Source: Chlorobiaceae bacterium
Lineage (GTDB): Bacteria > Bacteroidota > Ignavibacteria > Ignavibacteriales > Ignavibacteriaceae
Direction: 5' to 3'
Length of the DNA stretch: 64,000 bases
Assembly: GCA_013824085.1 (NCBI GenBank)
Contig: PNNF01000009.1
Coordinates: 1-64,000 of the forward strand
The position numbers and the translations under genes were made by a program. Shown here piece by piece: positions 1,795 to 10,188 of this stretch. The notes below the pieces were generated by a model that ran no database searches, was not told where the DNA came from, and saw only the letters and a list, made by a program, of their open reading frames with translations. Positions within the stretch are counted from its first letter, which is position 1. Every line of letters begins with the position of its first letter.

Positions 1795-2634
1795 TCACAA
1801 ATAAAATCGTGACCGAATGCCAATAACAAAATAATTTATTTCGTAGTTTTCAAATGTTGTGTTTTGATAAGATGCTATCAACGTAATTTGTTTTATTAGA
1901 TTCAGTTCAGCTTGTAGATAGATTTGACTTTTCTGAGTTTCATTCTGATTAAATAAGGTCAAGAGATCATTATCAAAATAATATGCTCGCTTTCCTGCAA
2001 ATCCACCAACCTTTATTAACAACTGCGAGAAAGGGAGATAATGAATTTTGCCACCTAAAGAAAAAAGATTTCGTCCATCTTGCAATAAGGAAAAATTTGG
2101 TCTAACTGCAATTAAAAATCTTTCTCCAAGAATTCGTTCATATCTTAAAGTGAACTGATTCACAGTTTGTTTCGGGAGACTATCTTGACTTAAAACACCA
2201 GTCGCATTCAAATGAGAATATGCAATTCCATAAAAATTTATTTTGTCCTGAAAAATAAAATCAAATGAGTAAAGATTTGTGAAGTCCGAATAATTGAATA
2301 ATTCAGAAGCGTTATAATTAAAATTTCCTTTAAGATGTAAATAAATAAACTTTAAGAAAACATTGCTAAAGCTAGTTGAAACACCGCCTAAAAACATCTG
2401 CTGATTGTAATCCCAAGCAGGATTATCAATAGTCAAATTGTCATAGCTGTTAAGAAGGAAAATATTTTTTGATATTTCTAATGTATTATAAAATGCGAAA
2501 GAATTCGATTTGTTTTCGTTATCGTAATTAGCATTTGTATAAAAAATAGAAGACTGTAATAGATTTCCACTCACTTGTGAAAAAGAAAAAAACGAATTAA
2601 TAAAAAATAGAATTACTAAAAATCTGAACTTCAT
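1795..2634 (-). CDS. Predicted outer-membrane beta-barrel protein
   Basis: 279 residues with a clear signal peptide (hydrophobic FLVILFFINSFFSFS ending near residue 19) followed by alternating hydrophobic/polar strands rich in Tyr, Phe and Asn and a C-terminal aromatic-Leu ending (FYL), typical of outer-membrane barrels. I do not recognise a named family. The pairing with an upstream TPR gene resembles the YaiO-type arrangement of TPR plus barrel, but that comparison is loose. The start overlaps the end of the TPR gene by 4 bp, so the two are likely translated together and may form one envelope unit. Confidence 0.6.
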   Translation of the reverse strand: MKFRFLVILFFINSFFSFSQVSGNLLQSSIFYTNANYDNENKSNSFAFYNTLEISKNIFLLNSYDNLTIDNPAWDYNQQMFLGGVSTSFSNVFLKFIYLHLKGNFNYNASELFNYSDFTNLYSFDFIFQDKINFYGIAYSHLNATGVLSQDSLPKQTVNQFTLRYERILGERFLIAVRPNFSLLQDGRNLFSLGGKIHYLPFSQLLIKVGGFAGKRAYYFDNDLLTLFNQNETQKSQIYLQAELNLIKQITLIASYQNTTFENYEINYFVIGIRSRFYL

Positions 2635-3266
2635 TTCAGGAGATTTAACCCTTCTAATGCAGACGCATCATCCTTTGAAAGCATAAGTACGTTGGTCAAG
2701 AGCTCTTTTGCTTTGGCAGAATTTCCGAGATAATAATATGTCCAACCAAGTGAGAGATTGACTGAATATTCGCCGGGGTAACTCTTGAAGACTTTTTCTA
2801 AATATTTTTTTGCTTCATTATAATTAGTTTCGGAAAGTGCAATTTGTCCCAAACCAAGATTTGCAAAATAATTTTCGGAATCTACTTTCAAGATACTTTT
2901 ATAAATCTTTTTAATTTCTTCCCAATTATTTTTTGCTGATAAAGGATAAGTCAAGCCGAGTTGAGATTCAATACTGCTATTACTAATTCTGACGGCATTT
3001 CTATAATAACTTTCAGATTTATCAAAATCATTCAGTATAAATGCGAGCCAACCAAGTCTAAGATTAATTAAATAATTCTCTTTATTTTTTTCGTAAATTT
3101 TTTCCAATTCAGAAAATGCTTTTTGATTATCACCTAAAGTTGAGTGTTCAATCGATTTATTAAATGCTGCAACTTTTGGGTCTTCGCTTTTAGAAATAAG
3201 CGCATACGAAAAAATTGACATAATAATTGCAGTCAAAATTATACTCAAAGCCACAAATCGTTTCAT
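2631..3266 (-). CDS. TPR-repeat protein, membrane-anchored or exported
   Basis: 211 residues: an N-terminal hydrophobic segment (residues about 5-25, signal or anchor) followed by four to five tetratricopeptide repeats, seen as recurring patterns such as NLGLGQIALSETNYNEAKKY and NLSLGWTYYYLGNSAKAKEL. TPRs mediate protein-protein contacts, so a scaffolding role between the fused transporter/peptidase upstream and the barrel protein downstream is a reasonable inference. It begins 9 bp after the stop of the urea-transporter/M23 gene and ends in a 4-bp overlap with the barrel gene. Specific function unknown. Confidence 0.75.
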   Translation of the reverse strand: MKRFVALSIILTAIIMSIFSYALISKSEDPKVAAFNKSIEHSTLGDNQKAFSELEKIYEKNKENYLINLRLGWLAFILNDFDKSESYYRNAVRISNSSIESQLGLTYPLSAKNNWEEIKKIYKSILKVDSENYFANLGLGQIALSETNYNEAKKYLEKVFKSYPGEYSVNLSLGWTYYYLGNSAKAKELLTNVLMLSKDDASALEGLNLLK

Positions 3267-3275
3267 GATTTTCTC

Positions 3276-5399
3276 CTAAATTTTATTAACACTTACTTTT
3301 AATTTCTTGTCATCTGAAAAAGAAAAATTATTTACCACTCCATCTTCAGAAATCGTAATAGTTCCAGTAAAAGATTTTTTATAGAACAAAAATAAATTAT
3401 TTCCTAATACGTTAAGATTATTTTTTATTACAATATTTTTATCATCTTCTAATCGTTCACTAAAAAATGAAAACTTCTTTACTTCAATATGATTTTTTGA
3501 TAATATAAAAAACTCAGATAGATATCTAATAATATTATTTGGCATTAGTGAAAAAGAAATCTCATCACTCCACTCTAACGAAGTATGAAATGTTAAAGGA
3601 ATTTGAGACGCATTAAGGAAAAAATAATATAATGCTGAATTTTTCTTCCCGACATAATTAGTAATGTAAAATATTTTTTCTGTTTTATAAAGATAGACAA
3701 CATCTTCTTTCGATGATTCGATATAAAGATTGTTCATCATATCAATTTTCACTTCCCATGTTTCTTTTGTTTGTTTTCCATTTATGTTTACATCAAATTC
3801 AAATTTATCACCGAAATTAAAATCGAATGCTTGCTTAACAATTTTATGTGTTTCAATATTTTGTACGAGAGAATTTTCTTCGGGATAGTCAAATAATTTT
3901 AATTTTAATTTCTCATTTTCTTTTACAATAAAATGTGCGAATGGATACTTATAAGTTTTGTCGCCTAATTTATTTGTCAACTGAAATTGGAAATGTAAAT
4001 GTGGAATTGGAGATCTTCCACTGTTTCCGCAATAGCCAATTAAATCTCCTTTTCTAACATTATCATTTTCTTTAACCTTTATTGAATCAACTTTGAGGTG
4101 AGAGATTGAAGAAAAGAGACCTTCGCCATGATTGATGATAACGGTGTTTCCCCAATTATTCTCAACGTTCACTTCCCCGATATTGTTGTCATCAATGTAA
4201 TCGATAATTTTTTCGACCGTTCCGTTTGCGGGCGAAACGACTGGTAAACCGAAGCAGAAATAATCGCTCGTTGAATTTCCTGAATTACTAAATTCTTTTT
4301 TGTCCGAATCAACAACAACAAAGTCCCAAGCGTACTTCCAATCTTCTTTGTGTGTGTGCTTTCCATTAAATCCTTGTGAGACAAGCCATCGCCCGAAGAA
4401 TGGAAGTTCTGCAAAAAAATATTTGAATCGATCAAAGCGAGATTTTCTGTTCTGATGATAATAATAATTTTCTTCGGGTGAGCCGGGAGAAAAATAGAGT
4501 AAGACTAAATCAGATTGATCTTGTCTGAATTTTAATGAATATAAAGTTGTCAGAACAATAAAGTTAAAAGGTAAAACAAGTATTAAAATTGCTGATGGTA
4601 ATAATTGATAGAAAAAAAGAGTGAATATGACCACCATCATTATTGAAATTGACATAAGAAGAAAACTTTTTTTAGATGGAATTATTAAACTTCCACCTAA
4701 CGCAAAGGCTGTTAATATTGAGTTCAAGCTTGTAATCAAAAAAAGTTGATCAAACAGATGTGGAGCAAGCAACATTAAAAAAAGATAGTTGAACGTAAAC
4801 GCAAAAACACTTATCATAAATAATAATCGTGAAAATATAAGAATTCCAATCACAATTAATAATCCCGCAAGTGCATCTGCCTGCAAAAGAATCATTCCAA
4901 ATGATCTGAAATAATTTTTTACAATATCAGGAAGAAATGCAATGAGGGAAGAATCTTTTACCGAAACTATATTAATTTTTGTCTCTGGGAAATTACCGAT
5001 GAAGACTAAAAAAATAATTAAAGATAAAACAAATGGAATGCTTAGTCCGGGAAGATTAAATAATTCTGCAAAAAAATTTTCAATAACAGCGCTAATCAAA
5101 AAAGAGATTAAAATAAATAATGGAAGTATTAACAAAATAAAAAGAGTTATGTCAAAGTAATATCCAACTGCTGCGGCAAACAAAATTCCGTTGAATCCAT
5201 AGTAACCAGATCTGATTTTCTTCTCGTCAAACTTAAGTAGAGTGGCAATTAAATTAGAAATCACAACTCCCAATAATCCTAGCAAACCAATCTCAGGTGA
5301 AATGAGTGAGGCAATTAAAATAATTCCTCCCAACCATCTTCTGTTAGAAAAAAAAATTTGTGCGTAAGAATATAAAATCGAATCAAAAAAAATTGTCAT
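3276..5399 (-). CDS. Urea-transporter-like membrane domain fused to M23 metallopeptidase domain
   Basis: 707 residues. The N-terminal half (about 15-295) is a multi-spanning membrane domain with the urea transporter (SLC14/UT) signature GYYGFNGILFAAAVGYYF at 65-82, a LPGLSIPFVL loop, and a second-half counterpart LNSILTAFALGG near 220-240. A soluble region from about 340 to 480 is an M23 (LytM-type) peptidase: HTHKEDW and AWDF near 350-360 and HLHFQF near 468 supply the zinc ligands, with GWTVIINHG-like core sequence (GNTVIINHGEG) between. About 220 further C-terminal residues are unassigned. UT proteins are passive urea/amide channels; M23 enzymes cut peptidoglycan peptides outside the membrane. 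It starts 1 bp after the decarboxylase stop. The fusion is clear; its job is not. Confidence 0.85.
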   Translation of the reverse strand: MTIFFDSILYSYAQIFFSNRRWLGGIILIASLISPEIGLLGLLGVVISNLIATLLKFDEKKIRSGYYGFNGILFAAAVGYYFDITLFILLILPLFILISFLISAVIENFFAELFNLPGLSIPFVLSLIIFLVFIGNFPETKINIVSVKDSSLIAFLPDIVKNYFRSFGMILLQADALAGLLIVIGILIFSRLLFMISVFAFTFNYLFLMLLAPHLFDQLFLITSLNSILTAFALGGSLIIPSKKSFLLMSISIMMVVIFTLFFYQLLPSAILILVLPFNFIVLTTLYSLKFRQDQSDLVLLYFSPGSPEENYYYHQNRKSRFDRFKYFFAELPFFGRWLVSQGFNGKHTHKEDWKYAWDFVVVDSDKKEFSNSGNSTSDYFCFGLPVVSPANGTVEKIIDYIDDNNIGEVNVENNWGNTVIINHGEGLFSSISHLKVDSIKVKENDNVRKGDLIGYCGNSGRSPIPHLHFQFQLTNKLGDKTYKYPFAHFIVKENEKLKLKLFDYPEENSLVQNIETHKIVKQAFDFNFGDKFEFDVNINGKQTKETWEVKIDMMNNLYIESSKEDVVYLYKTEKIFYITNYVGKKNSALYYFFLNASQIPLTFHTSLEWSDEISFSLMPNNIIRYLSEFFILSKNHIEVKKFSFFSERLEDDKNIVIKNNLNVLGNNLFLFYKKSFTGTITISEDGVVNNFSFSDDKKLKVSVNKI

Positions 5400-5400
5400 C

Positions 5401-6762
5401 TTAAACAGGAATCAATTTTAATTTTTTAGGAAGTAATTCTTGCTCTAATAAATAATCAAGATTTTCTGCTTTTCTAATTAATTCTACTTTGCCATTTTCC
5501 ATTATCATCACAACGTTTGGACGCATAGAAATAAACTGCATCCATTGCGTCATATTATATGCACCAACATATTTGATAAGTAGTTTGTCACCTCTATTTA
5601 TCGAAGGCAGATTGATGCTTTCAGTTATGCAATCGATGTTCATACAAAGCGGACCATAAATTGCAGTATCTTCAGTATGCACTCCAGAGTTTTGACACAA
5701 TTGAATATTATGCTTGTACCAAAAACTTGTAAACAAAATATTAACACCCGCATCAATTATGACTGCTCGTTTTCCTGATGTGAGTCTTTTGTTAGTAATA
5801 ACTGAAGTGATTAAAAATCCTGCGTCGTCAATTAATGCTCTCCCAGTTTCAAGTATAAGAGTTGGTAAATCTTCACTCTTAAATGAAACATCAAAAATTC
5901 CATTTGTAATTGCGTCAGCGTATTGTTCAACTGAAGGTACGAGTTGTTCAGCAGGAAGGTATTGTCCAATGAGTGTATTGTGAGAAGCAAAACCGCCGCC
6001 TAAGTCAAGATACTCAAGGCTTACATTGAATTCGTTTTTTATTCTTTTACACAAACCAGCAAGATTATAAGCAGCAATTCTATAAGCTTCAGCAGACATA
6101 ACGTAAGTTCCGATATGTGTATGAAGCCCGACTAATTTTAAGTTTTTATTTTGAATTATTCTGTTAATCGCTTGCCAAGATTCGCCGTTTTCAAAATTAA
6201 ATCCGAAGCGATCCCAAATAGGATAGATTCCGACATCCATATTAATTCTAATCGCAACTTCTGCTCTAATATTATTTGTCTCAGCTAATTCTGAAATCAA
6301 AAATAATTCATCGAAATGATCGATATGAATTTTGGATTTATTTTTCATCGCGTTCAAAAGTCCCGCTTCACTTTTTGCTGGACCATTAAAAATAATGTGC
6401 TCACCTTTAACGCCGAGTTTTCTCGCTTTGTCATATTCAAAATCTGAAACTACTTCAGCCCATGAACCTTCTTGATGAAAAACAGAGCAGACAGCGTCTA
6501 AATAATTTGTTTTGTATGACCAAGCAAATTGAACTTTAGGATATCGATTCTTAAAAATTCTAAAAGCATTTTTTTGATTTTGTCTAATTTTTTTTTCAGA
6601 GATTACGAACAACGGCGAACCATATCCTTCGCATAAAGACTTGATTGAAACTCCATCAATATCAACTGTTGGTCTTGATAAGGAACTGCTCCCAAATTTA
6701 TTCATCAGACCAGAATACTGCTTAGTGATTGTTGGTCGCTCATATCTTAATTTTTTTTTCAT
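5401..6762 (-). CDS. Group IV PLP-dependent decarboxylase (diaminopimelate/ornithine decarboxylase fold)
   Basis: 453 residues of the alanine-racemase-like barrel family. PLP Schiff-base lysine is Lys84 in SYKTN; HTHIG (214-218), LDLGGG (252-257) and ETGR (305-308) bind the cofactor phosphate and ring; Cys373 and Asp377 in CMNID correspond to the conserved CxxxD substrate-site motif. About 30 extra residues precede the usual LysA start. The C-terminal AYNMTQWMQF replaces the LysA GAY(G/S)xxx(S/A)SNYN motif, so the substrate is probably not meso-diaminopimelate. Its location between an ATP-grasp ligase (4-bp overlap upstream) and a transporter argues for a dedicated pathway rather than lysine biosynthesis. 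Candidates are an amino acid or a carrier- or peptide-linked amino acid. Confidence 0.85.
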   Translation of the reverse strand: MKKKLRYERPTITKQYSGLMNKFGSSSLSRPTVDIDGVSIKSLCEGYGSPLFVISEKKIRQNQKNAFRIFKNRYPKVQFAWSYKTNYLDAVCSVFHQEGSWAEVVSDFEYDKARKLGVKGEHIIFNGPAKSEAGLLNAMKNKSKIHIDHFDELFLISELAETNNIRAEVAIRINMDVGIYPIWDRFGFNFENGESWQAINRIIQNKNLKLVGLHTHIGTYVMSAEAYRIAAYNLAGLCKRIKNEFNVSLEYLDLGGGFASHNTLIGQYLPAEQLVPSVEQYADAITNGIFDVSFKSEDLPTLILETGRALIDDAGFLITSVITNKRLTSGKRAVIIDAGVNILFTSFWYKHNIQLCQNSGVHTEDTAIYGPLCMNIDCITESINLPSINRGDKLLIKYVGAYNMTQWMQFISMRPNVVMIMENGKVELIRKAENLDYLLEQELLPKKLKLIPV

Positions 6763-7799
6763 AATTTTAATTCTCCAGTGGTACTAATTTTTTCAAAGAC
6801 TTTCATATCAGTAATTAAATCCCAAGCACACCTAACAAACATCTTCCCAATTTCATAATTGCTAAACGAAGTAACTTTTTCATCCATTCCAAGCTTCACT
6901 AATGCCCAAGGTAAATTTTGTCCGGCGTTTGGTGCTAAATAAACCCAAGCAGGAAATCGAGGATTAATCTCTAGTAAAAAATATTCACCAGTTGCAGCGG
7001 ACTTAATAAATTCAAGCTCCAAACCACTTTTCCATTTAGAAGTTAGAATAAATTTATTTGAGACTCCGAGCAAAGTTTTGTCTAAAATCGTAACTCCCGA
7101 CCAACCTTTTCCCTTGTCAGTTATGTAAAGCTTTCGCATAACCACAGCACCAATCGTTTTGCCTGTGCCGTCACCTAAACCGACAACATTAAATTCATCA
7201 CCTTTAATATATTCTTGAACTATTATTGGGAAGCCCCATTTCTGTTTCAATTTATTAAATGCAACAACTGCTTCATCAAAATTATTTACGATATACGCTT
7301 CATAAAAAATTCCTTTGAGCACAACGGGATAAGAAAAATTATTTTGGATAGAATGCAGATTAGAAATATTTGTTGCTAAAATATTTTTTGGAACTTTTAT
7401 TCCCTGCTTTGTACAAAAATTAAACAACTTATCTTTCGACCTTATTTCAAGCTGTTCAAACGTTGGTAGAAATAATTTTATTCCCGCTTCCAAAAGCTTA
7501 TCTTGAATTTTTATAAATGCATAAAGCTCAGAGTCGAGAGTGGGAATAATGAAATCGAGTTTTTCTATTTTATGAATTGCTAAAAGTCGTTCTAAAAAAT
7601 ATTCCAAACCACTTGATGGATAAGGTATCAAATAAGATTTGGAAGTCAACTTTTCGATGTATAAACCGGGATCAAGCGAATCATAGGATAATCCGATTAT
7701 TTCACCTTTGAAATCTTTTGCGTCTTTTATACTTCTGATAACAGGAACTCCAGGTCCAGGGCTATCAATAGCATTTAATCCAGTAACTGCTATTTTCAT
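6759..7799 (-). CDS. ATP-grasp ligase (CarB/PylC-like)
   Basis: 346-residue ATP-grasp protein: N-terminal Rossmann-like preATP domain (MKIAVTGLNA, and PTLDSE near 86-91), ATP-binding Lys162 in VVLKG, the adenine-strap region QEYIKGDEF (195-203), and the Mg-binding LEINPRFPAW (276-285). This fold joins a carboxylate to an amine or thiol through an acyl phosphate. The closest general look is the CarB/PylC type of single-domain ligase; the substrate cannot be read from sequence. It overlaps the PqqD-like gene upstream and the decarboxylase downstream by 4 bp each (ATGA junctions), so the three are very likely made in fixed ratio and work in one pathway. Confidence 0.85.
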   Translation of the reverse strand: MKIAVTGLNAIDSPGPGVPVIRSIKDAKDFKGEIIGLSYDSLDPGLYIEKLTSKSYLIPYPSSGLEYFLERLLAIHKIEKLDFIIPTLDSELYAFIKIQDKLLEAGIKLFLPTFEQLEIRSKDKLFNFCTKQGIKVPKNILATNISNLHSIQNNFSYPVVLKGIFYEAYIVNNFDEAVVAFNKLKQKWGFPIIVQEYIKGDEFNVVGLGDGTGKTIGAVVMRKLYITDKGKGWSGVTILDKTLLGVSNKFILTSKWKSGLELEFIKSAATGEYFLLEINPRFPAWVYLAPNAGQNLPWALVKLGMDEKVTSFSNYEIGKMFVRCAWDLITDMKVFEKISTTGELKL

Positions 7800-8050
7800 T
7801 TTTCAGTCACTAAAGAATAAAATTTTAATTGTGCTACAAGCTCTTCAAAATCTTTTTCAATCGTATTCGTATCAACTATATAATTTTCTGTGAAGAATTT
7901 TAAGATTTCTTCTTTTGATTTTCTTGAGCGCAGCATTCTAACTATTTCTGAGCCTGTTTTATTGAGTGTAAAAGTTTCTCCTGTTGTGTGCAGAAAAAGA
8001 AATCCTGAATCACTAACAGCAAGATTTTCTATAAGATGTATTTTACTCAT
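7796..8050 (-). CDS. PqqD-family small protein (RRE-like peptide-binding fold)
   Basis: 84 residues covering a whole PqqD domain: GFLFLHTTGETFTLNKTG at about 16-33, EIVRMLRSRKSKEEI, and a C-terminal DFEELVAQLKFYSLV helix, matching the family pattern of a small winged-helix RiPP-recognition element. In PQQ and other RiPP pathways such proteins hold a precursor peptide for a radical SAM enzyme. No radical SAM gene or obvious precursor is adjacent here. It is the first gene of the minus-strand operon and overlaps the ATP-grasp gene by 4 bp, so it may present a substrate or carrier to that ligase. Confidence 0.85.
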   Translation of the reverse strand: MSKIHLIENLAVSDSGFLFLHTTGETFTLNKTGSEIVRMLRSRKSKEEILKFFTENYIVDTNTIEKDFEELVAQLKFYSLVTEK

Positions 8051-8249: not shown

Positions 8250-8753
8250 TTGCAAAAGATTTCAAAAAAAATTTCACAAAAAATAAAAAAAATAAAAGTT
8301 TTACTCACGGATGTTGATGGAGTGCTAACTGATGGCGGAATGTATTACACTGATTCTGGTTTGACAATGAAAAAATTTAATGTCAAAGATGGAATGGGAA
8401 GTTACATACTAAGGGCGGCAGGAATAAAGGTTGGGATAGTTACTTCCGACAAAAGTGAAATTGCAAAAGTAAGAGGTGAGAGATTAAATTTAGATTTTAT
8501 TTATATCGGAGCACTCGATAAAAAAAATATTTTAAATGAGATATGCAGCCAAAATAATTTTAGTTATGAAGAGATTGCATTCATTGGCGATGATGTAAAT
8601 GACACAGAAATATTGAGCACTGTTGGATTTAGTGTTTCACCAAAAGATGCATTACCAGAAATAAAAAAAATCGTTGATTACATTTCTGACAAAAAAGGCG
8701 GTAAAGGTGTCTTCAGAGAAGTTGCAGAGATGATTTTGAAATATCGAAAGTAA
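8250..8753 (+). CDS. kdsC: 3-deoxy-D-manno-octulosonate 8-phosphate phosphatase (HAD-IIIC)
   Basis: 167-residue HAD phosphatase that hydrolyses Kdo-8-phosphate to Kdo in lipopolysaccharide core synthesis, acting in the cytosol as a tetramer. The nucleophile and acid/base aspartates are Asp21 and Asp23 in DVDGVLTDGG, followed by the KdsC-type KKFNVKDGMG segment, a TSDKSEIAK motif (motif II/III region) and the Mg-binding FIGDDVND. Size and lack of a cap domain fit KdsC. The frame begins at TTG (8250); the next in-frame ATG would delete the conserved N-terminus. It is followed after 7 bp by the transglutaminase-like gene. Presence implies an LPS-bearing outer membrane. Confidence 0.92.
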   Translation: MQKISKKISQKIKKIKVLLTDVDGVLTDGGMYYTDSGLTMKKFNVKDGMGSYILRAAGIKVGIVTSDKSEIAKVRGERLNLDFIYIGALDKKNILNEICSQNNFSYEEIAFIGDDVNDTEILSTVGFSVSPKDALPEIKKIVDYISDKKGGKGVFREVAEMILKYRK

Positions 8754-8760
8754 AATCCAA

Positions 8761-10188
8761 ATGAAAATAGTTAGTTCCCTTTTTACAATAATATTTTTTG
8801 CTGCCATTATGTATTCTCAAGAAAAAATTTCAACAGTGGATTCATTAATTAACTCCGGTGAATTTAACAAAGCTAAAGAATTAATTCACAGTGAACTTTG
8901 TGAGGCTAATTTATCTGCAGAAGTTAGATACAATCTCAATTTTAAGTTGGAGTTAATGGATAGAGTTAAATTAGATTTTAAGCGAACTGAAGAAGATGTT
9001 CTGAACGCTCTGAGGAAATATTATCCGAATATAAAATCAGAAGATTTAAGAAAATGGGAAGTAAATAATTCGCTTGAGATGAGAATGATAAATGGGGAGA
9101 GAAGATATTTCAATAATGCTGTGGCAAATCTGTTTAGAATCGACAATGATGCAAAAAAAATTAAAGAAAGTATCGATGGAATTGTTCCGAACAAACTAAC
9201 AGAATTTCTTTCATCATATTTACCGAAATTGGTAGTACAACATGAAACAGAAAAACAGAAATTAATTAATCCCATCAAAGTGAAAATTAACTACACGCTT
9301 TCTGTAAAACCAAATGTCGTTCCCGATGGAGAGATGATTAAATGTTGGTTACCTTTTCCTAAAGAAACTAGAAGAAGACAAACAGAAGTAAAATTAATTT
9401 CATCCAGTCCAACGAACGCTATTGTTGCTCCTGATGAATTTTTACAACGAACAATTTTCTTACAGCAGAAATCAATTAAAGATAAACCCACAGTGTTTAA
9501 TGTTGAATATAGTTTTTTGAGTTATGCAGAATTCAATTCTATTAATGAAGAAAATTTTGTTGTTGTTCCAGATGACTCAATTACAATAGAATACACTCAG
9601 GAAAGAGCGCCGCATATTATTTTTTCTGATGAGATAAAAAAATTATCCGATGAAATTGTTGGAGATGAAAAAAATCATTACAGAATTTTGAAAAAAATAT
9701 TTACGTGGATTAGCAAAAATATTCCTTGGACAAGTGCACTCGAGTATTCAACAATACCAAGTCTCTCAGGCTACTGTGAAAAAAATAGACGAGGTGATTG
9801 CGGAATAAAAGCGATGCTATTTGTTACGCTTGCACGTCTAAATGGAATTCCAGCAAAATGGCAAAGCGGTTGGATGTTACACCCGGGGAACTTGAATCTG
9901 CACGATTGGGCTGAAGTTTATGCAAACAGTATTGGATGGATTCCGATTGATGTCGATTTTGGTTTACAAAAATCTGAGAAGAAAAAAGTAAAATATTTTT
10001 TCTTAGGTAATACAGATAATTATCATTTTATTGTTAATGATGATTTTTCACAACCGTTTTTTCCGAGTAAGATTTTTCCAAGAAGCGAAACTGTTGACTT
10101 CCAGAGAGGCGAAGTTGAGTGGAGAGGTGGAAATCTTTATTTCGACAAATGGAATTACAAAATGGATGTTACATTCGAAGAAAAATAA
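8761..10188 (+). CDS. Exported transglutaminase-like (cysteine protease fold) protein
   Basis: 475 residues with a signal peptide (ending near residue 20, ...AAIMYSQ). The C-terminal third is a transglutaminase-like domain: Cys in RRGDCGIKAML (near 347), His in NLHDWAEVYA (near 381) and Asp in WIPIDVDFG (near 398) form the triad. The N-terminal part is helical and then beta-rich (NYTLSVKPNVVPDGEMIKCW onward), without a family I can name. Such exported proteins commonly act as peptidases or amidases on peptides in the periplasm. It lies 7 bp after kdsC and may be co-transcribed. Substrate unknown. Confidence 0.8.
   Translation: MKIVSSLFTIIFFAAIMYSQEKISTVDSLINSGEFNKAKELIHSELCEANLSAEVRYNLNFKLELMDRVKLDFKRTEEDVLNALRKYYPNIKSEDLRKWEVNNSLEMRMINGERRYFNNAVANLFRIDNDAKKIKESIDGIVPNKLTEFLSSYLPKLVVQHETEKQKLINPIKVKINYTLSVKPNVVPDGEMIKCWLPFPKETRRRQTEVKLISSSPTNAIVAPDEFLQRTIFLQQKSIKDKPTVFNVEYSFLSYAEFNSINEENFVVVPDDSITIEYTQERAPHIIFSDEIKKLSDEIVGDEKNHYRILKKIFTWISKNIPWTSALEYSTIPSLSGYCEKNRRGDCGIKAMLFVTLARLNGIPAKWQSGWMLHPGNLNLHDWAEVYANSIGWIPIDVDFGLQKSEKKKVKYFFLGNTDNYHFIVNDDFSQPFFPSKIFPRSETVDFQRGEVEWRGGNLYFDKWNYKMDVTFEEK

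Follow-up and report, generated by a model that had tools for sequence, protein, structure and literature searches.

A six-gene operon on contig PNNF01000009.1 of a Chlorobiaceae bacterium (assembly GCA_013824085.1; all coordinates are those of the 64,000-nt window of this contig that was analysed) is an uncharacterised biosynthetic module whose chemical logic is familiar, and the case for its six genes being one functional unit, inherited all or none across scattered Bacteroidota, is strong. Open reading frame (ORF) calling in the window placed all six genes on the minus strand, in the order PqqD-family protein, ATP-grasp ligase, pyridoxal phosphate (PLP) decarboxylase, urea-channel (UT) domain fused to an M23 peptidase (UT/M23), TPR protein and predicted outer-membrane beta-barrel. 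By the ORF coordinates, successive genes meet in a 4-bp overlap, a 4-bp overlap, a 1-bp gap, a 9-bp gap and a 4-bp overlap (the overlaps joining PqqD to ATP-grasp, ATP-grasp to decarboxylase, and TPR to barrel). This agrees with the first-pass annotation of the same DNA, which had described six minus-strand genes with 4-bp overlaps or gaps of 1-9 bp and whose assignments of PqqD, PLP decarboxylase and TPR, and of UT and M23 to a single ORF, were supported by Pfam/NCBIfam models.

The genes were compared across the best 80 of 571 decarboxylase relatives found in a scan of named genomes (all of those listed are Bacteroidota), which were re-annotated, gene order being counted only where the contig was long enough. 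PqqD and ATP-grasp lie upstream of the decarboxylase in 68/68 testable loci, UT/M23 and TPR lie downstream of it in 58/58, and a barrel was detectable in 52 of these 58, a recurrence of gene order far above chance. In Ignavibacteria the order is PqqD, ATP-grasp, decarboxylase, UT/M23, TPR, barrel, and in Bacteroidales, Chitinophagales and Sphingobacteriales it is PqqD, ATP-grasp, decarboxylase, UT/M23, TPR+barrel, TPR. Whole-genome searches were made within the phylum, in a sample of 296 genomes drawn from Bacteroidota (thresholds: UT/M23, E <= 1e-50; ATP-grasp, E <= 1e-60; decarboxylase, E <= 1e-80; PqqD, E <= 1e-8). UT/M23, ATP-grasp and decarboxylase occurred in an identical set of 27 genomes covering 22 genera, and PqqD in the same 27 with two weak strays in addition. 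Two identical 27-genome sets would arise by chance with a probability of ~1e-38 under independence, a value that the relatedness of the genomes makes less extreme. Five of the families also show correlated pairwise identities (r = 0.80-0.92), indicating co-divergence. We regard the genes as one functional unit because their order is conserved, they are present all or none in the same genomes and the family distances are correlated.

That the genes belong together had been supposed in the first-pass annotation, which proposed a gene-neighbourhood comparison as a check and named an order unique to this contig, or homologues already assigned to lysine/polyamine metabolism or a named RiPP (ribosomally synthesised and post-translationally modified peptide) pathway, as grounds for abandoning the idea. 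The same order was returned by every testable locus and, since it recurs in the named loci and in 27 of the 296 genomes, it is not unique to this contig; no such assignment of the homologues was encountered either. The remark that no described pathway has this gene set also stands, in that no description of it was found in the literature searched, which left out most subscription papers.

As to function, ligation to an amino acid side chain followed by alpha-decarboxylation is, by analogy, the best-supported reading, with about an even chance of being correct. The ATP-grasp ligase would form an amide (or acyl) bond between the side chain of an alpha-amino acid and a partner; PqqD would present or hold this partner or the growing product; and the decarboxylase would then take the alpha-carboxylate off the side-chain-modified amino acid, leaving a primary amine. 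The M23 peptidase, which probably sits where the UT-fold domain opens to the cytoplasm, would trim or release the product, which would cross the inner membrane to the periplasmic TPR protein and then to the outer-membrane barrel. This order of steps is proposed because of two precedents, FigA/FigC and BtrJ/BtrK acting on the BtrI carrier. For the entire scheme, i.e., a biosynthesis-plus-envelope module in which amino-acid ligation with a PqqD presenter and decarboxylation to an amine are followed by handling of the product by envelope proteins, we consider the chances evenly balanced.

The decarboxylase (5401..6762; 453 aa) contains the Orn/DAP/Arg decarboxylase domains PF02784 and PF00278 (Pfam) and stands nearest to N-citrylornithine decarboxylase and DAPDC, its family profile scoring 277 bits with FigC (7kh2), 196 with LysA (1twi) and 134 with BtrK in a comparison with the PDB. 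K84 (the PLP lysine), R172, H216, GGG 255-257, E305, R308 and C373 are invariant in 81/81 decarboxylases; the PLP lysine, stacking histidine, GGG, glutamate, phosphate arginine and catalytic cysteine are thus all present, and the protein is predicted to be an alanine-racemase-fold PLP decarboxylase. Specificity positions were mapped from the FigC residues reported in PMC7857480. Thr345 (FigC T327) replaces the substrate arginine of LysA and Met374 (FigC M355) replaces the glutamate of its CES motif, both in 81/81, as expected from the earlier statement that the substrate region departs from LysA. Tyr402 (FigC Y383) is likewise found in 81/81, and Trp348, Ile376 and Gln406, at FigC T330, H357 and R387, are each present in 81/81; Trp407 is a further residue of the pocket. 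His357 and Arg387 of FigC are docked or proposed citrate contacts, and the clade of SbnH, AcsE, MccE, BtrK and FigC tends, unlike DAPDC and D-ODC, toward specialised metabolites (PMC7857480). Judged from these residues, the pocket resembles that of an enzyme of acylated diamino acids from which the proposed citrate contacts have been lost, unvaried across the phylum. Being identical in 81/81 and unlike that of LysA or FigC, it implies one fixed side-chain-modified amino acid as substrate; because of this identity, a single assay would give the substrate class for all 81 copies.

If the enzyme were a diverged LysA/ODC of ordinary polyamine or lysine metabolism and its neighbours incidental, the overall LysA/ODC fold and the 237 bits to the lysA model would be accounted for. 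However, this score is below the lysA cut-off of 298, a separate, true lysA (457 bits) lies elsewhere in the genome, the substrate arginine and glutamate of LysA are replaced in 81/81, and the co-occurrence with the neighbouring genes is perfect. LysA identity was rejected on the score and the two residues, and a lysine/polyamine assignment was rejected, as far as sequence allows, on the score, the pocket and the separate lysA, leaving this explanation highly improbable. Membership of FslC/FigC was also rejected (248 bits against an NF041039 cut-off of 500; Ile376/Gln406 at the citrate contacts in 81/81).

The rhizoferrin system of Francisella, FigA/FigC (FslA/FslC), is like the operon in that a ligase acylates a diamino acid and a decarboxylase of the same clade then removes the alpha-carboxylate, FigC being the closest solved relative of the operon enzyme. 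It differs in its ligase (FigA is a NIS synthetase, whereas the operon has an ATP-grasp ligase and no siderophore synthetase) and in its citrate-contact residues His357 and Arg387, at which the operon enzyme has isoleucine and glutamine; the operon also adds PqqD and the envelope genes. In butirosin biosynthesis a small carrier protein (BtrI), an ATP-grasp ligase (BtrJ) and an alanine-racemase-fold decarboxylase (BtrK) act in sequence, as would the corresponding operon proteins, but the butirosin carrier is an acyl carrier protein in place of a PqqD domain, there is no envelope half, and BtrK is more distant from the operon decarboxylase than FigC (134 vs 277 bits). BtrK acts on glutamyl-BtrI (PMC7857480).

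The ATP-grasp protein (6759..7799; 346 aa) scores under the Pfam cut-offs and matches CPSase-like NCBIfam models of the PRK12767 type. The best fold match of its AlphaFold model (pLDDT 88.9) is the structural-genomics protein 2pn1 (TM 0.72/0.81); other matches are biotin carboxylases and CPSase, with the L-amino acid ligase RizA (4wd3) ninth, and such matches of a predicted model do not fix the substrate. Among 77 copies, 13 of the 14 tabulated residues are invariant, and K162, E202, E263, E277, N279 and R281 occur in 77/77; the fold and the conserved nucleotide/metal residues place the protein in the ATP-grasp ligase class, where it had been put at first. The PqqD protein (7796..8050; 84 aa), annotated earlier as RRE-like, matches PF05402 at 41 bits (cut-off 23) and is accordingly a predicted RRE of the PqqD family, its nearest solved relatives being the lasso-peptide RREs TbiB1 and TfuB1. 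The N-terminal motif NIA-x-SE-x-GFxFN-x-x-TGDSFxxN is conserved, with A11, G16, F19, G24 and N30 in 76/76. By analogy, we infer that this protein may act as a carrier.

The lasso-peptide relatives of PqqD would also suit RiPP maturation, in which PqqD would be a true RRE, the enzymes would modify an unlinked ribosomal precursor, M23 would remove the leader and the envelope proteins would export the peptide. MccE, which shares the clade of the operon decarboxylase, has a peptide-nucleotide as its substrate (PMC7857480), and a peptidase that is cytoplasmic and attached to a membrane domain would be well suited to removing a leader. However, no conserved small ORF (candidate precursor) was found in the gaps or within 1.2 kb on either side of the loci, i.e., the loci lack the precursor gene near the modifying enzymes by which graspetides and RiPPs are recognised, and the ATP-grasp enzyme is of the CPSase-like kind, with 2pn1 and biotin-carboxylase/amino-acid-ligase types as the nearest folds. 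We therefore consider RiPP maturation quite unlikely, and the peptide-linked product that had been envisaged loses ground for want of the small ORF. Some short ORFs do recur, but they were rejected as precursors, being antisense in Chitinophagaceae loci to an upstream gene, apparently a GNAT acetyltransferase.

The UT/M23 protein (3276..5399; 707 aa) matches UT (PF03253, 158 bits) and M23 (PF01551, 59 bits) in the same ORF, and the fusion first described is real, with intact M23 motifs. It comprises the UT domain (residues ~5-288), the M23 zinc-peptidase domain (residues ~345-480) and an all-beta C-terminal domain (residues ~490-707) for which no Pfam or PDB sequence match was found; an AlphaFold model of residues 294-707 (pLDDT 92.1) matches the M23 fold. 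The zinc/catalytic residues H350 and D359 are present in 70/70 relatives, H434 in 69/70, and H467 and H469 in 68/70, so that the residues of an M23 endopeptidase active site (H, D, H, HxH) appear intact by sequence. In genome G063 (G063:C1:2246027-2248173) the UT part is encoded in one frame and the M23 part in another.

The UT domain was assigned to its fold by PF03253 and by alignment with dvUT (3K3F/3ME1), which it matches from end to end with the number of transmembrane (TM) segments unaltered; unlike dvUT, it carries M23 and a beta domain as fusion partners. The equivalent of dvUT F27 is kept in 70/70 relatives. The residues that we take to form the urea-selective slot of dvUT (Q24, E187, T130 and T294) fared differently: E187, of the oxygen ladder, is kept in 0/70 (A/S/L/F/M instead), Q24 in 27/70 (lost in 43/70), T130 in 1/70 (Ser in 66/70) and T294 in 11/70 (Ser in 49/70). 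Since E187 is lost in all and Q24 in most, urea selectivity is not to be assumed, and the earlier idea of a urea-like product leaving through the UT domain is weakened.

In UT proteins the two termini face the same side of the membrane, which for UT-B is the cytoplasm. The mean charge of the operon-type UT domain is +1.3 at the N terminus, +2.5 in the 14-residue stretch that follows the last TM segment (TM10; none of 70 copies is net negative there) and -1.7 in the TM5-6 linker, a distribution that predicts an Nin/Cin topology and hence a cytoplasmic M23 domain. The closest plasmid-borne M23 domains are those of haloarchaea (31-42% identity over 140-200 residues) and Thermus (loci L172, L173, L174 and L175). 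Haloarchaea have no peptidoglycan, and therefore this M23 branch need not be a cell-wall enzyme. Both results detract from the envelope site shaped by M23 that had first been suggested. The side matters: M23 in the cytoplasm could set the product free, and M23 in the periplasm could work together with TPR and barrel.

A periplasmic M23 is the basis of a different explanation, envelope remodelling, which is close to the first-pass reading and in which the UT domain would be inverted, M23, TPR and barrel would form a periplasmic complex acting on peptidoglycan or at the outer membrane, and a modifier made by the cytosolic enzymes would be attached to the envelope. The charges just described, the full-length alignment to dvUT with unchanged TM segments and the haloarchaeal M23 relatives all speak against it, and the signal-peptide-like N termini of TPR and barrel and the intact M23 active-site residues speak for it. 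So do two observations that count at the same time against the ligation-decarboxylation scheme with cytoplasmic M23: signal peptides occur in some of the M23 relatives from Bacteroidota, and the model of the M23 and beta-rich C-terminal domains has one weak LolA-like match (rank 50), to a fold usually found in periplasmic proteins. Envelope remodelling is possible, if somewhat unlikely. Further points weigh against the ligation-decarboxylation scheme. The cytoplasmic location of M23 follows from charge rules applied to an inverted-repeat fold, and periplasmic TPR/barrel partners would fit better with a periplasmic M23; a UT pore normally selects very small solutes, which makes transport of a larger amine doubtful; the role of PqqD could be unrelated to substrate presentation, and the gaps and 1.2-kb flanks yielded no precursor peptide; and the substrate is predicted from sequence, fold and analogy. 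The cysteine pair C382/C457 was rejected as disulfide proof of a periplasmic M23: the pair is present in 60/70, and because a single Cys occurs in 6/70 it is not decisive.

The TPR protein (2631..3266; 211 aa), downstream of UT/M23 in relatives too, has an N-terminal signal/anchor and TPRs detected by Pfam. The barrel protein (1795..2634; 279 aa), with a signal peptide, had no Pfam or NCBIfam match; it is predicted from its sequence pattern and, as the best support, from its homology with the C-terminal portion of the Bacteroidia TPR+barrel protein (hhalign, probability 96-97%, E ~1e-10). The envelope TPR/barrel pair of the first-pass annotation is retained, with TPR in 58/58 and barrel in 52/58 loci. 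Three components weakly resemble the exosortase-A-associated decarboxylase TIGR03099, the HPr-rel-A PqqD TIGR04353 and the PrsT TPR protein, all with scores under the curated cut-offs, and an exosortase-A (PEP-CTERM) association was rejected, as there is no exosortase in this genome and only 2/22 carriers have one.

Upstream of PqqD, ~20/65 loci have an immediately adjacent LytS-type histidine kinase and LytTR regulator, at distances as small as -4 (overlap) or 2-6 bp (e.g., L054 (6114-8023), L076, L097 and L107), and 13 loci have instead a GNAT acetyltransferase 65-316 bp away (e.g., L047, L053, L059, L061, L063 and L073; the named ones are mostly Chitinophagaceae/Chitinophaga). These neighbours suggest signal-dependent regulation. 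The weakest step of the proposed mechanism is suggested by the LytTR pair, namely that a signal-like or protective small molecule would be produced under regulation and secreted; LytTR systems are common in Bacteroidota, which tells against it. That the operon encodes a natural-product or signalling pathway in every part, with a PqqD carrier, cytoplasmic M23 release on a re-purposed urea-channel fold, TPR/barrel export and LytTR control, is unlikely.

About 9% of the sampled Bacteroidota genomes carry the unit, from Ignavibacteria to Pedobacter and Chitinophaga, and with such a range a broadly distributed metabolite is probably missing from current knowledge. Two features are odd: the M23 peptidase may be active on the cytoplasmic side, and the urea-channel fold lacks the urea ladder. 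Both can be tested directly in cultured carriers, which include Pedobacter and Mucilaginibacter. No convincing plasmid or viral carriage of ATP-grasp, decarboxylase or the whole UT/M23 was found. Genome G054 has two copies of the module, one at each end of a single contig, likely an assembly-end duplication.

Past the barrel gene, 48 bp away and also on the minus strand (853-1746), lies a gene for an RmlD-like NAD-dependent reductase (159 bits, under the rmlD cut-off of 224). It may be a seventh, lineage-specific gene, and the relative loci L037 and L039 likewise have RmlD-like genes after the operon. On the other side, a divergent plus-strand pair (8250-10188) encodes a KdsC-like HAD phosphatase and then a transglutaminase-core protein, and the same pair is found near the operon in the relative locus L035.

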